Below are positions 2,851 to 37,031 of a DNA stretch of 64,000 nucleotides, one piece after another. Below the pieces are notes generated by a model that saw only the letters and a list, made by a program, of their open reading frames with translations, had not been told where the DNA came from and searched no databases. Location of the stretch: the NCBI RefSeq assembly GCF_023746555.1, contig NZ_CP098755.1, positions 79,501-143,500 on the forward strand, written 5' to 3'. The position numbers and the translations under genes were made by a program. Origin of the DNA: Brevibacillus ruminantium. GTDB lineage: Bacteria > Bacillota > Bacilli > Brevibacillales > Brevibacillaceae. How positions within the stretch are numbered: position 1 is the first letter of the stretch; every line of letters begins with the position of its first letter.

Positions 2851-2898
2851 AGATGAGATTCGGACAAGGACTTTGCAGATTGGAGTGTCACTTAAAAC

Positions 2899-4617
2899 AT
2901 GGCTTACACCGCGCTGTATCGCGTATACCGACCGCAAACCTTTCAAGACGTGGTAGGACAAGAGCATGTGACCGTCACTCTGCGCAATGCCTTGCGGGAG
3001 CAAAGACTGTCTCACGCTTATTTGTTCAACGGTCCCCGAGGCACGGGTAAAACCAGTGCAGCCAAGATTATGGCCAAAGCTGTAAACTGCGAGCAGCCGC
3101 AGGATGGCGAGCCGTGCAACCAGTGCGCTACCTGCAAGGCTATCACCGATGGCTCTGTGACCGATGTACTGGAAATTGACGCAGCATCCAACCGGGGCGT
3201 GGAAGAAATTCGGGACATCCGTGACAAGGTGAAATTTGCCCCAAGCGATGTCAAATACAAGGTTTACATTATTGACGAAGTGCATATGCTGACGACGGAA
3301 GCGTTTAACGCCTTGCTGAAAACGCTGGAGGAGCCTCCTTCCCACGTCATCTTTATTTTGGCAACAACAGAACCCCACAAGCTGCCGGCGACGATTATCT
3401 CCCGCTGCCAGCGCTTTGATTTCCACCGGATCTCACTGCGCGAGATGGTCAGACGGCTCTCCTACATCTGTGAGTCACAACAGGTTTCCGTGGAGGAGCA
3501 AGCACTGACACTCGTTGCCAAGATGGCAGAAGGCGGCATGCGGGATGCATTGAGCTTGCTCGACCAGGCGATCAGCTATAGCAACGAGAAGATAACGGCC
3601 GCTGATATCATGCAGATCACGGGGACGGTATCCCAAGGGTATTTTTCTACCCTGGCCCGCTCTGTCGCCAACCGGGACGTGGCCCAGGTCATGGAACAGT
3701 TTGACAAAGTGATGGTCCAGGGGAAAGACCCCGAGCAGTTTTTGCATGATTTTCTCTACTACTATCGAGATATGCTGCTTCTGAAAACCGCTCCCCATCT
3801 GGAAGAAATCGTGGAGCGGACGATGATTGACGACCAGTTTGCCCAAGTAGCACAGCTATATGAAATCCCGCATCTATACAGTGCGATTGAAGTGTGCAAC
3901 CAATCCCTGGCCCAACTGAAGTGGTCGACGTACGCCCGGGTGCTGGTGGAGTTGACGCTGGTGAAATTATGCCAACTGCCGGGGCAGAGTCCTCAGCAGG
4001 GCGCGACCCAGTCGGCAGCGGTATCTAACACAGCGAGCGGCGAGGACCTGGCTGGTTTGGCAAATCGCATCCGCCAACTGGAGGAAAGACTTGCGCAGCT
4101 AGCCCAGGGCCAAGGTCTTCAGTCCGGGCAAGCCCAAGCGGAAGAGCCACGGAAACAGGAAGCTCGCCGGCCGGTTGCAGCTGCAGGCGGCGGGTCGCGA
4201 ACGCCAATGAATCGGGTCCGGGAAGCGGCGATGGCTGTAAATGAGGCTTTGAGCCGTCAGGTCCGCGGACAATGGAGCCAGATTTTGGCCGATGTGAAAA
4301 AGGTCAAGATTCAGTATCAAGCCTGGTTGGTCAATGGGCAACCAGCAGCAGTCGGCAGTGATTCTGTCGTTGTGACCTTTACAAGCCCGATCCACTGCGA
4401 CAAGACGATGGAACCTGAACTGAAAAACGTGATTGAACGGGCGATTCTCGGCGTCGTTGGCAGACCGCTGCAGCTCCTGTCAGTGATGGAGGAGGAGTGG
4501 CAGTCCGTCTATCAGCAAGCTGCGCAGGGAGATGCCCAGAAGCAGGAGGAACAGGATCCGTTTGTGGCCGAAGCGATCAAACTGGTCGGCGAAGGTCTTG
4601 TGGAAGTGAAGGAATAA
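2899..4617 (+). CDS. dnaX: DNA polymerase III subunit gamma/tau
   Basis: 572-residue ATPase of the clamp loader, which loads the beta clamp and bridges polymerase and helicase. Walker A GPRGTGKT is at residues 45-52, zinc-binding cysteines at about 64, 73, 76 and 79, the Walker B region reads IIDEVHML, and a sensor-1 region follows in LATTEPHKLP. The C-terminal third, from about residue 370, is a low-complexity linker rich in Q, A and E followed by a tau-type domain. I see no heptameric slippery site, so a shorter gamma by frameshifting is not supported. First gene of a dnaX-ebfC-recR operon. Confidence 0.97.
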   Translation: MAYTALYRVYRPQTFQDVVGQEHVTVTLRNALREQRLSHAYLFNGPRGTGKTSAAKIMAKAVNCEQPQDGEPCNQCATCKAITDGSVTDVLEIDAASNRGVEEIRDIRDKVKFAPSDVKYKVYIIDEVHMLTTEAFNALLKTLEEPPSHVIFILATTEPHKLPATIISRCQRFDFHRISLREMVRRLSYICESQQVSVEEQALTLVAKMAEGGMRDALSLLDQAISYSNEKITAADIMQITGTVSQGYFSTLARSVANRDVAQVMEQFDKVMVQGKDPEQFLHDFLYYYRDMLLLKTAPHLEEIVERTMIDDQFAQVAQLYEIPHLYSAIEVCNQSLAQLKWSTYARVLVELTLVKLCQLPGQSPQQGATQSAAVSNTASGEDLAGLANRIRQLEERLAQLAQGQGLQSGQAQAEEPRKQEARRPVAAAGGGSRTPMNRVREAAMAVNEALSRQVRGQWSQILADVKKVKIQYQAWLVNGQPAAVGSDSVVVTFTSPIHCDKTMEPELKNVIERAILGVVGRPLQLLSVMEEEWQSVYQQAAQGDAQKQEEQDPFVAEAIKLVGEGLVEVKE

Positions 4618-17885: not shown

Positions 17886-18158
17886 AAATACTGAAGATCG
17901 ACCATGACGGGAAGAGTAGGCTTGCTTTTCTTATCACAGAGAGCCGGGGTAGGTGTGAGCCGGTATAAGCAACCAAGCTGAAGATGGCCCCTGAGTTTCA
18001 CGAATGAACAGCAGCCAAGGCTCGCAAGTAGTTCGTGACGCAAACCTGCGTTACAGGTGGAGTCAGGATGACTCTCCAAGTCCGCCGTTCGTGAGAAGGC
18101 GGAGTATTTGGGTGGTACCACGAGAATAAAACTCGTCCCAATCCGGGGCGGGTTTTTT
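17886..18158 (+). promoter_or_regulatory. T-box riboswitch with methionine (AUG) specifier
   Basis: The leader has the AGTA bulge of stem I (GGAAGAGTAGG, about 17910), a specifier ATG at 18004-18006 followed by A, and the T-box sequence TTGGGTGGTACCACG at 18109-18122. The terminator stem CTCGTCCC/GGGGCGGG (18132-18139 with 18145-18152) ends in six T. Uncharged tRNA-Met should pair with the specifier and the T-box bulge, favouring the antiterminator and expression of metS. Confidence 0.93.
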
Positions 18159-33735: not shown

Positions 33736-35505
33736 ATGTGTAATCTTTCGATTACTCCCCCATATTATACCACGCAATTAACTCTTCCCCTAGAGGGAAC
33801 AGTAGAAAATATTGTTTCCAAGAGACAATGCGCTCCTACATTCAAATCATATAATAACCGTCAGGTTCAAGTTATCTTCGATATCGAGGAACTTATTCCC
33901 GTGCACCATGTCGCACGTGTGGTAGATGAAATGGTTGAGGCCATTCCTGATGATAAGTTATTTTCTCATTATCCAGGCGGTGGCAGACCTTCGTTCCACC
34001 CTAAGATGATGCTAAAGGTCATCCTGTTTGGCTACTCCCAGAAGGTGTACTCTTGCCGTGGTATCGAACAGCTTACCCGTGAAAATATTCCCACCATGTG
34101 GCTGGCAGCGATGCAACAACCAGACTACCGTACCATCAACGAATTTCGTGGCAGACGGATGAAATCGATGATGAATGAACTTTACGAAACCATGATCTTG
34201 AAGCTCATCGAGGCCAACTATATCACCATGGAAAATTACTTTCTGGATGGGACAAAAATCGAAGCAAATGCCAACAAGTATTCTTTCGTATGGAAAAAAT
34301 CAACGATCCGATTCGAGGAAAAACTGAAGGAGAAGATCCGAGAAACCTTGCGGCTCATTGAGGAGACAGCCAAGGAGGAAGAATTGGAAATCCTTGCGGA
34401 TAACCTGATGGATACAGTGGAAGACCCCTCCAAATTGGAAGAGATTGCTGTTGGCTTGGAAACCCACATAGCCGTTTTATCAGATGAGATGGAAAATGAG
34501 ACAAATACAGAAGTCCGTAAGGAAAAGCGAAAAAGACAGAGTACATGGAAGAAATCCCTTAAGCTGATCCGTAAAGATTTCCTACCAAGGCTTGCCAAAT
34601 ACAAAGCTCAAAACGAAACTTTTGGTGACCGCAATAGTTATTCCAAGACAGATAGTGACGCAACATTCATGCGGATGAAAGAAGATCATATGAAAAACGG
34701 TCAACTTAAGCCTGGCTATAACGTACAGATGGCAACGGAGAATCAATTTATCCTATTTTACACCATTCATCAACGTCCAACGGATACACGCTGCTTCATC
34801 CCCCATCTAGAGAAGCTGGCTTCTTCCTGGCTGCCCATGCCCAAAAATGTCATCGCGGATGCGGGGTATGGGAGCGAAGAAAACTATCTGTATGCGGTGG
34901 GGGAGGAAAAAGAACCACGGTTTGATTTCCTCATTCCTTACGGAACCTATTTGAAGGAAAAAACCCGAAAAGCCAAAAGGGACATCAAAAGTGTAATAAA
35001 CTGGGTCTATGTTGAAAAGGATGATTGTTTTATCTGCCCAAATGGAATGAAAGTTACGTTTAAGAAATACCAGAACAAGAAGAACGCCTCTGGTCATGAA
35101 CAAAGTTACAAAATTTATGAATGTGAGGATTGTTCAGGGTGTCCATTCAAATCGCAATGTACCAAAGGTAAAGGGAACCGTCAGGTTCATTGGAATACGA
35201 TCTTTGAAGAAATGAAAGCAAAGGCAAAAGCAGCCCTTGAATGTGAAGACAAAGCAGCTATCTATGCCCGACGTAAAGTCGAGGTCGAAAGCGTGTTCGG
35301 TCACATCAAGGGCAATCGGTCGTTCCGCCGATTTTCTCTTCGTGGGCTCGACAAAGTGCATGTCGAGTTCGGAATTGTGGCACTAGCACATAACTTGTTG
35401 AAAGTGGCGGGCATCCGCCTGGCCACATTCCTCAAACCAATAAGGGCAAAAAAAGAAGCTGGGGGAAAAACGAAACGGTTTTCCCCCAGCTTCTTTACTT
35501 TTTAG
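33736..35505 (+). CDS. IS1182-family transposase
   Basis: 589 residues. N-terminal DUF772-type region (NNRQVQVIFDIEELIPVHHVARVVDEMVE, about residues 34-62), the first catalytic Asp in NYFLDGTKIEANANKYSFVWKK, the second in VIADAGYGSEENY, four cysteines in CEDCSGCPFKSQC and the catalytic Glu in RRKVEVESVFGHIKGN. The DDE set looks complete, so the protein is probably active. A coiled, charged insert (about 195-295) is normal for the family. Codon use is more AT-rich than the neighbours. Confidence 0.94.
   Translation: MCNLSITPPYYTTQLTLPLEGTVENIVSKRQCAPTFKSYNNRQVQVIFDIEELIPVHHVARVVDEMVEAIPDDKLFSHYPGGGRPSFHPKMMLKVILFGYSQKVYSCRGIEQLTRENIPTMWLAAMQQPDYRTINEFRGRRMKSMMNELYETMILKLIEANYITMENYFLDGTKIEANANKYSFVWKKSTIRFEEKLKEKIRETLRLIEETAKEEELEILADNLMDTVEDPSKLEEIAVGLETHIAVLSDEMENETNTEVRKEKRKRQSTWKKSLKLIRKDFLPRLAKYKAQNETFGDRNSYSKTDSDATFMRMKEDHMKNGQLKPGYNVQMATENQFILFYTIHQRPTDTRCFIPHLEKLASSWLPMPKNVIADAGYGSEENYLYAVGEEKEPRFDFLIPYGTYLKEKTRKAKRDIKSVINWVYVEKDDCFICPNGMKVTFKKYQNKKNASGHEQSYKIYECEDCSGCPFKSQCTKGKGNRQVHWNTIFEEMKAKAKAALECEDKAAIYARRKVEVESVFGHIKGNRSFRRFSLRGLDKVHVEFGIVALAHNLLKVAGIRLATFLKPIRAKKEAGGKTKRFSPSFFTF
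35455..35505 (+). terminator. terminator inside the transposase 3' end
   Basis: GAAGCTGGGGGAAAA (35455-35469) pairs perfectly with TTTTCCCCCAGCTTC (35479-35493) around a 9-base loop; a T-rich tail reaches the stop codon. The hairpin is part of the last codons. Confidence 0.85.
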
Positions 35506-35621
35506 GGACTTTTTAGACAGCCCCTTTTTGCATATCCGTAAGTTAAATATTATAGGGGGCGTAAGCCTCCGTTATTCTCTCAATCTCAAATAAAACCTTC
35601 GAGATCACGGAGCCATAGCGA

Positions 35622-35817
35622 GAAGAAGCATGTTTCCCTGCTCAGCTCCGTATTCCGCCCGCAAGGAAGTAATACTGTCCGCTCCAGGGCAATTCGCGGG
35701 GGTGCGCAAAAGCAGCAACGCTACGAGGTCATCCAAGGTTGCGCCCCTTTTTCCCGCGAATTGCCCCTCCGCTGGGGCAGGGCTCCACAGTCGCACCGCA
35801 GGGAAACATGCTTCTTC
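35622..35817 (+). repeat. structured repeat family, copy 2
   Basis: 196 bp with perfect terminal inverted repeats GAAGAAGCATGTTTCCCTG (35622-35640) and CAGGGAAACATGCTTCTTC (35799-35817). Inside, GGGCAATTCGCGGG (about 35687-35700) pairs with CCCGCGAATTGCCC (35753-35766), and GGGG(T)GCGCAA pairs with TTGCGCCCC. No coding potential is convincing. It begins 97 bp after the IS. Confidence 0.85.
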
Positions 35818-35820
35818 ACG

Positions 35821-36066
35821 AAACCGGAGCTTCTTAAATTTGAAGGGGAAGCGAAGGAGAAAAAGAATGAGAAAACCTATCATAAAACCGATAAATAAAA
35901 CAAAAGAACAAAGCAGAGAACAAAACCAATGAACATTGAAGAAAACACTTTCCGAGGAACTAACGTATCTATTGTCCTTCCAAAGATAAAACCAGATCAT
36001 TCCAAGTGCGAAAAACCGGTAATTGAACGCTCCGCTATCGTACAGCCGATGTTTTTTGGTTTTCAT
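35821..36066 (-). pseudogene. possible remnant of a small membrane protein gene
   Basis: Between the two repeat copies the minus strand is open from an ATG at 36066. It encodes about 80 residues with two hydrophobic segments (FFALGMIWFYLW and SLLCSFVLFIGFMIGFLILFL), then runs on into repeat copy 2. No good ribosome site precedes the ATG. It could be a real gene cut off by the repeat, or chance. Confidence 0.25.
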
Positions 36067-36122
36067 CCAAAATCATATTTCTCTTTTGCTCATTATAAAA
36101 GTATGGAAAAAGCAGCATGTTC

Positions 36123-36323
36123 GAAGAAGAATCCTGGTTCCCTGCGGTGCGACTGTGAAGCCCAGCTCAGCGGAGCAGCGGATGGCGGGAAACAGGGGCG
36201 CAACGTGGGATGACCCCGAAGCATTACTGCTTTTGCGCACCCCCGCCAGCCGCTGTGGAGCGGACAGTGAAATCCGCCCTGCAGGGCGAAATACGGAGCC
36301 AAGCAGGGAACCAGGATTCTTCT
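36123..36323 (-). repeat. structured repeat family, copy 3 (inverted relative to copy 2)
   Basis: About 200 bp, matching copy 2 on the opposite strand (shared GGCTCCGTATT, GGGGGTGCGCAAAAGCAG and CACAGTCGCACCGCAGGGAA). Its terminal repeats, AGAAGAATCCTGGTTCCCTG (36125-36144) and its exact complement (36304-36323), differ from those of copy 2 yet pair perfectly. The internal CAGCGG.TGGCGGG/CCCGCCA.CCGCTG stem has also changed on both sides. Confidence 0.85.
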
Positions 36324-36461
36324 CACCACGGCCCCGTAGCACGGAGAAAAGCTAGAGGTTAATCCCCATAAGCTCATACAACTATAAGGGAAGTCGGACA
36401 GTTCCTTTGTTCCCGCGTTTGTTTTCGGTTAAAATGAGAGGAGAAAGAGGAGGGAGTCAGC

Positions 36462-37031
36462 GTGAAAGTAATCGTCGGACTGGGGAACCCCGGCAAAAAA
36501 TATGAAGATACCAGACATAATGCAGGTTTTATGGCCATAGATAAGATTAATGACAAATGGGGCATACCCGTTCAGCAGAACAAATTTCGTGCGCTCGTCG
36601 GAGAAGGACGGATTGACGGAGAGAAAGTGCTTCTCGTCAAACCCCAAACCTATATGAATTTATCCGGTGAATCGATAGCGGAAATTCTGAAGTTTTACAA
36701 ACTGGGCCCTGAGGATGTTGTGGTCATTTACGATGACCTGGATTTGCCCCCTGGCCAGCTTCGCTTGCGAGAAAAAGGAAGCGCCGGCGGACACAATGGG
36801 ATCAAATCACTTATTATGCATATGGGTACACAAGATTTTAACCGCATCAAAATCGGCATCGGTCGTCCTGAACCGGGACGGAGTGTCAGTGATTATGTGC
36901 TCCACCCTTTTTCGACGGAGGAACGCCCATTAATTAGCGAAGCCGTAGATCTGGCTGCCGAAGCCGCCGCGATGTGGATGAAGGAACCGTTTCTCAAAGT
37001 GATGAACAAATACAACGCCGCCAAAAAATAA
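36462..37031 (+). CDS. pth: peptidyl-tRNA hydrolase
   Basis: 189 residues (spoVC). VGLGNPGKKYEDTRHNAGF holds the substrate Asn and catalytic His20; DDLDLPPGQLRLREKGSAGGHNG holds the catalytic Asp and a second His. It recycles peptidyl-tRNA that drops off ribosomes. The GTG start follows GAGGAGGGAG. Confidence 0.97.
   Translation: MKVIVGLGNPGKKYEDTRHNAGFMAIDKINDKWGIPVQQNKFRALVGEGRIDGEKVLLVKPQTYMNLSGESIAEILKFYKLGPEDVVVIYDDLDLPPGQLRLREKGSAGGHNGIKSLIMHMGTQDFNRIKIGIGRPEPGRSVSDYVLHPFSTEERPLISEAVDLAAEAAAMWMKEPFLKVMNKYNAAKK

Follow-up and report, generated by a model that had tools for sequence, protein, structure and literature searches.

Positions 35,607 to 36,345 of the window, by which we mean the whole 64,000-nt stretch of Brevibacillus ruminantium DNA that was analysed, raise the question of what two related, inverted and structured sequences represent. 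The first-pass annotation had described them as two copies of a repeat family that it did not recognise, A at 35,622–35,817 on the plus strand and B at 36,123–36,323 on the minus strand, and both are present with stems that we reproduced. The family is dispersed and non-coding as claimed, but A and B are not separate copies: they are the inverted ends of one element, whose parts are as follows.

35,607–35,621, plus strand: left outer tail, adjoining the A unit; sequence ACGGAGCCATAGCGA, copy consensus approximately TGGAAACGGGGCYGYAGTGA, defined from the flanks of 23 pairs and an information profile.
35,622–35,817, plus strand: A unit, a folded domain with an outer stem, a long inner stem and side hairpins.
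35,622–35,817, minus strand: the strand of the A unit favoured by wobble pairs, reading outward (leftward).
35,818–36,122, no strand assigned: spacer, variable in sequence, with its first and last stretches conserved.
36,123–36,323, minus strand: B unit, an inverted divergent paralogue of A; its wobble-favoured strand is the plus strand, reading outward (rightward).
36,324–36,345, plus strand: right outer tail; sequence CACCACGGCCCCGTAGCACGGA, copy consensus approximately CACYRCGGCCCCGTTGCACGGA.

The composite order is tail, A (~196 nt), variable spacer, inverted B (~200 nt) and tail. The terminal repeats of each unit pair with their own far end, as had been noticed: the outer stem of A joins 35,619–35,641 to 35,798–35,820 (96% complementary) and that of B joins 36,125–36,145 to 36,303–36,323 (100%). 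The inner stem of A joins 35,687–35,700 to 35,753–35,766 (100%), and the window copy of B, read by eye from the sequence, has one C/T mismatch in its inner stem. The differences between the A and B stems are two-sided and were recovered on both arms. Compared with 200 dinucleotide shuffles each, the two window copies had folding energies with z of -6.3 and -8.4, beating all shuffles. To the left of the element lies a DDE transposase gene (33,736–35,505; Pfam), which we take to be IS1182-like, and to its right a gene at 36,462–37,031 that is presumably peptidyl-tRNA hydrolase. Rfam had no match up to E 5 for the element; elsewhere in the window the Rfam scan found a large SRP RNA (791–1,055) and a T-box leader (17,895–18,143).

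Searching the window genome (G000) by BLASTN with A and then with B as query found 41 places in each case (40 candidates scored each). A model built from 34 sequences and holding 46 base pairs (R1) gave 74 matches at E 1e-10, 56 of them with at least 145 bits (150 of 1,684 candidates scored); the matches below 145 bits consist of five fragments plus echoes of the same units on the opposite strand. Among the 56 units, 46 fall into 23 extracted A/B pairs, 2 stand opposite a partial A unit and the other 8 are solo; A/B pairs number 25 and hold 48 of the 56. The facing of A to B is identical in every one of the 23 extracted pairs, over spacers of 31 to 2,420 bp, and conservation stops ~20 bp beyond each unit. 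Given that fixed differences separate A and B as two lineages of one unit, the composite and not the single unit is the element. The outer stem of A is nearly invariant across loci, variation being found mostly in B and in the inner stem, and, with its spacer counted in, the whole window element shares 84% identity with the copy at G000:C1:607067-607819. The four spacers longer than 600 bp, scanned for ORFs, share no common gene and contain unrelated insertion-sequence genes or short ORFs; we take these genes to be an IS200/IS605 pair and an ISL3-like gene, with an IS1595-like fragment in another spacer. Since these insertion-sequence genes differ in each spacer, we read them as later insertions and rejected an element with its own transposase. 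Two further candidates were dropped: a 15-kb composite from the A unit at 713,805 to the B unit at 729,298, whose contents look like ordinary genes plus an ISL3-like gene, and a closing stem between the two tails, suggested by their consensus, because two tails from one element pair no better than tails taken from separate elements (p 0.24).

The family was matched in 26 of 26 Brevibacillus genomes searched (98 candidates scored per genome), most of which carry many matches, a count that includes opposite-strand echoes; at the low end G015 has two and G016 one. A survey of Bacilli with strict filters (8 candidates scored per genome) found matches at E 0.001 in 41 of 299 genomes, 16 of them Brevibacillus genomes, 6 from further genera of the family and 19 spread over five additional families, and outside the genus the best E-values run from 2e-43 to 1e-5; under the same filters four listed genomes of the same family had no match. 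At phylum scale, 398 genomes searched at E 1e-6 (strict filters, six candidates scored per genome) gave the window genome only. The exact core pattern occurred in 49 stretches of named genomes, 48 of Brevibacillus and one of an Oscillospiraceae assembly. The A/B pair arrangement recurs in G074, G117, G201 and G081. Phages and plasmids gave no blastn match to A and viral contigs lacked the core pattern, and a phage or plasmid origin was rejected on these grounds. Within the genus, one set of genomes (group F: G002, G005, G006, G012, G013, G014, G018 and G019) has an element of ~500 bp in which the second domain, D2, is an inverted, divergent relative; three D2 domains score 32–38 bits and one 40 bits, the remainder falling under the threshold, and D2 covaries without a clear strand asymmetry. 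Tandem arrays are present, with copy number at the same sites varying between species. A divergent unit subfamily was also seen in several related genomes (L116, 9,311–9,505, 129 bits; L092, 4,111–4,305, 118 bits).

The first-pass annotation had proposed that changes preserving pairing reflect selection on a folded RNA or on single-stranded DNA. In an alignment of 124 distinct units fitted to the model, 96.7% of cells were paired, versus 86.0% after shuffling, two-sided changes occurred at 27 of the 46 pairs, and the covariation score was 0.282 as against 0.099 for shuffled and at most 0.079 for slid controls. The 26 rows from outside the genus, likewise fitted to the model, come from 24 places, two of which were read on both strands, and include L149–L151, which are near the genus type; here 43 of 46 pairs had two-sided changes and the score was 0.680, versus 0.180 shuffled and at most 0.123 slid. 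Aligning 40 units on the complement with MAFFT gave a score of 0.319 versus 0.137, with the structure derived from the same alignment. Internal loops and side hairpins of conserved sequence persist in distant members. The folded shape of the unit is kept by evolution, and on this point the annotation stands; the folded molecule may be RNA or single-stranded DNA. Of the outcomes that it had named as contrary, a lack of covariation was not what we found, two-sided changes lying far above the controls, and variation in blocks was found in part: orthologous copies look like mosaics of paralogues, indicating that part of the variation travels in blocks.

Which strand carries the fold was approached through wobble pairs. 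We counted GU versus AC cells on the model strand over 40 pairs, with A and B sorted by position; related sequences contribute to these cells. Helices 7 and 8 (6 of the 46 pairs) were omitted after seeing the data because each contains one pair that is almost invariably G-U on the model strand; when they are included GU exceeds AC (47/28 for A in G000), and the helix 8 pair counts against the complement strand. With this omission, GU/AC was 0/28 for A and 1/29 for B in G000, and 0/13 for A and 0/11 for B in the sister species G008, which makes 1 GU cell versus 81 AC cells for the main helices of the two species together. Since an AC cell becomes GU when read on the complement, the favoured strand points outward at A and B alike, and departures in these helices are almost all wobbles on whichever strand has its 3' end at that end of the element. 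Given that A and B lie on opposite strands, a replication-linked mutation bias should push them to opposite signs; where sites are unpaired, the two transitions differ by no more than about threefold. From this asymmetry, one of the two strands matters to the window species and to its sister. The pattern is not general, being absent or reversed in lineages beyond these two: GU/AC was 1/8 in group F, 0/4 in G007, 6/6 in G003, G009, G011, G023 and G024, 8/0 in G010, G020 and G022, and 21/24 in the rows from outside the genus. Similarly, the complement was the lower-energy fold for 64 of the 70 units from G000 and G008, compared with 14 of the 56 from elsewhere, in a count that, like the 47/28 count and those of tail profiles, terminators and unpaired sites, relied on a motif-based sorting of A and B that misplaced a few units.

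These counts bear on whether the family is merely an old dead palindromic repeat, its arms held complementary through intrastrand template switching or by conversion and its fold unselected. The mosaic orthologues would suit such a history, as would main helices that are nearly all Watson-Crick, the expected result of arm copying; however, arm copying should be blind to GU versus AC and would not account for the 1 to 81 ratio obtained with helices 7 and 8 excluded, and it would not have spared the loops and side hairpins, which are not erased in distant members. We consider a dead repeat unlikely. On either strand the main helices have few wobble pairs, as would suit a DNA fold.

A first regularity concerns orientation. 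In seven genomes, orientation agrees with replication for 169 of 172 units and, after merging arrays, for 131 of 134 listed loci, with the origin assumed at coordinate 1 everywhere, solo B units assigned by inverted orientation, and loci that are not independent events because many sites are common to six related species. All 15 listed units of G008 run in the replication direction. Among 26 elements (two solo B omitted), 25 follow replication and 19 follow the nearest upstream ORF, here any ORF of at least 100 codons and not an annotated gene. Element orientation tracks replication more tightly than neighbouring genes do. One exception, in G019 (L087), lies in a segment that is oppositely oriented in G006, G012 and G014 at similar coordinates; in these three the element follows replication and the flanking ORFs run against it. 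G010 is a misfit, with 4 of 8 elements and 3 of 10 introns in agreement, and the assumed origin may be wrong for this genome. Near position 1,353 of L087, G002, G013 and G014 carry an extra 1,257 bp at the same point, which is probably another mobile element.

A second regularity concerns intrinsic terminators. For 22 non-tandem copies of group F, some of which are one site in two species, a sense terminator lies upstream of 18 and an antisense one of 3; in 17 of the 18 the T-run ends 14–29 nt from the unit. Inner array copies of group F had a terminator in 0 of 14 cases. The window genome had sense terminators at 8 of 24 A sides and 9 of 28 B sides (antisense 1 and 2, respectively), G008 at 4 of 7 A sides and 2 of 11 B sides (antisense 1 and 0), and the remaining species had a sense terminator in 5 of 20 cases and an antisense one in 4. 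One site bears on insertion itself. At locus 481104 the element is found in G000 (~1.3 kb), and G024, G022 and G010 have 66, 142 and 137 bp, respectively, retaining the flanking genes and the terminator-like hairpin; G008, which is more closely related, carries one unit at this place. Divergence at this sole empty site prevents the junction from being placed exactly, and no target-site duplication was established. Recent insertion in group F was rejected, as the loci tried were filled in relatives with no empty site among them, some relatives holding partly deleted copies. After insertion, most copies seem to have been inherited vertically, forming tandem arrays and becoming partly homogenised.

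Intergenic positions, often near terminators and at sites common to several species, could also mean that the unit is a structured UTR RNA that serves the host, for example as terminator backup, in processing or as an sRNA source, and was later amplified. A/B pairs even occupy the same interval, presumably spoIID-spoIIQ, in genomes of two different genera (G117 and G201; L134, L135). Such a role is hard to reconcile with group F copies lying mostly 3' of a terminator, where little readthrough is expected, with units on both strands in each element, with a replication polarity that holds even against the flanking ORFs (L087), and with the merely 2 and 1 matches of G015 and G016; we regard it as very improbable.

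The same genomes contain group II introns, which we assume to be of class IIC. RVT_1 hits numbered 13 in the window genome, 27 in G008, 29 in G011 and 10 in G010, and reverse transcriptase hits shared the polarity of the element in 13 of 13 cases in G000, 26 of 27 in G008 and 5 of 6 in G006. All seven intron loci given to Rfam matched group II models, and the introns whose ends were compared are preceded by T-rich stretches, mostly following a hairpin. In G006 (L168, ~2,887–3,111) a group II intron is flanked by a terminator-like hairpin on one side and by a copy of the element on the other. The shared polarity, the shared place 3' of terminators, this joint use of one terminator and the abundance of introns in the window genome and its sister raise the prospect that the element is an intron satellite, an RNA copy inserted by the reverse transcriptase and the integration apparatus of the introns, in much the way that SINEs exploit LINEs. 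RVT_1 was, however, absent at E 1e-5 from 11 of 26 genomes, among them G012, G014 and G018, which are rich in element matches; the window element contains no group II domain; and because A and B favour opposite strands, a single transcript cannot carry both ends in the favoured sense. A satellite of this kind seems improbable to us. Searching for another enzyme, we found that, at E 1e-5 and with a model that does not separate RAYTs from other Y1 proteins, 16 of 26 genomes had a Y1_Tnp hit and 10 had none, including the element-bearing G012, G013, G014 and G022. Five genomes (G012, G013, G014, G016 and G022) had neither RVT_1 nor Y1_Tnp at this threshold, G016 having just one element match, and in the 26 Brevibacillus genomes no mobility gene was tied to the element.

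Together, the data lead us to favour, with moderate confidence, a non-coding element, mobile but non-autonomous, that is bounded by two inverted copies of a single ~200-nt folded domain and inserted at replication forks on a fixed strand. A trans-acting factor would recognise the folded ends as single strands, and insertion would take place as a fork passes, into the lagging-strand template while this is single-stranded DNA. Terminator hairpins may also form in this single-stranded template, and the niche would then be the one used by the group II introns of the same genomes. The polarity is a strong natural record of replication-linked insertion without an obvious enzyme. The covarying ends make a transposition system that reads folded single-stranded DNA or RNA testable, and the overlap with group II intron sites does the same for competition or dependence between the two. 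More tentatively, and with some doubt, we suggest that the element may belong to a new class, defined by outward-facing folded single-strand recognition ends and by fork-coupled insertion next to terminator hairpins on the lagging-strand template. If so, each copy would record the direction of replication at the time of its insertion, the element might exploit group II introns or another enzyme, and its ends, working in folded form, would follow a logic comparable to that of hairpin-ended replicons.

The mobile element proposed here resembles several known systems in part. MITEs are likewise short, non-coding, present in many copies and bounded by terminal inverted repeats, and A plus inverted B with conserved tails gives terminal inverted repeats without coding capacity; here, in contrast, the repeats are themselves covarying folded domains, and neither an autonomous relative with the same ends nor a target duplication was found. 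REP/BIME sequences with RAYT (Y1 HUH) transposases share the inverted hairpin pairs split by a linker and the many intergenic copies, but are 20–40 bp where the domains of the element are ~200 nt, and no Y1 gene is tied to the units. Group IIC introns share insertion just 3' of terminators and replication polarity in the same genomes, whereas the element has no intron domain (Rfam) and no reverse transcriptase, and its paired domains are inverted. Two papers describe bcr1 and other bcr repeats as mostly chromosomal, non-coding and 100–400 bp long, with mobile features, bcr1 occurring in dozens of copies per genome, and report bcr repeats as restricted to the Bacillus cereus group (PMC6542083, PMC3446304). 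The element is similarly non-coding, mobile-looking and present in dozens of copies; two inverted paralogous folded domains per element and the replication polarity set it apart, as judged from these descriptions. No such repeat family was found in the literature under the name Brevibacillus, subscription papers being mostly outside this search. A known RNA (HEARO or another Rfam family) was rejected after scans of the window, of the element with loose thresholds and of the loci of relatives returned none for the unit: over 20 loci with members from outside the genus Rfam gave only a TPP riboswitch, away from the unit, and in one scan two hits overlapped a unit at E 0.19 and 0.26, which we took as chance. 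A structured family occurs in every Brevibacillus genome examined and is without an Rfam match. The candidate for an autonomous relative is an IS1182-like element in G011, G195 and G111, which has A inside but has other ends. In this insertion sequence of ~1.97 kb (L078, L079, L081–L084 and L086 in G011, L149 in G111 and L150 in G195) the A unit lies between the left end and the transposase gene, and the flanks resemble the two halves of terminator hairpins.
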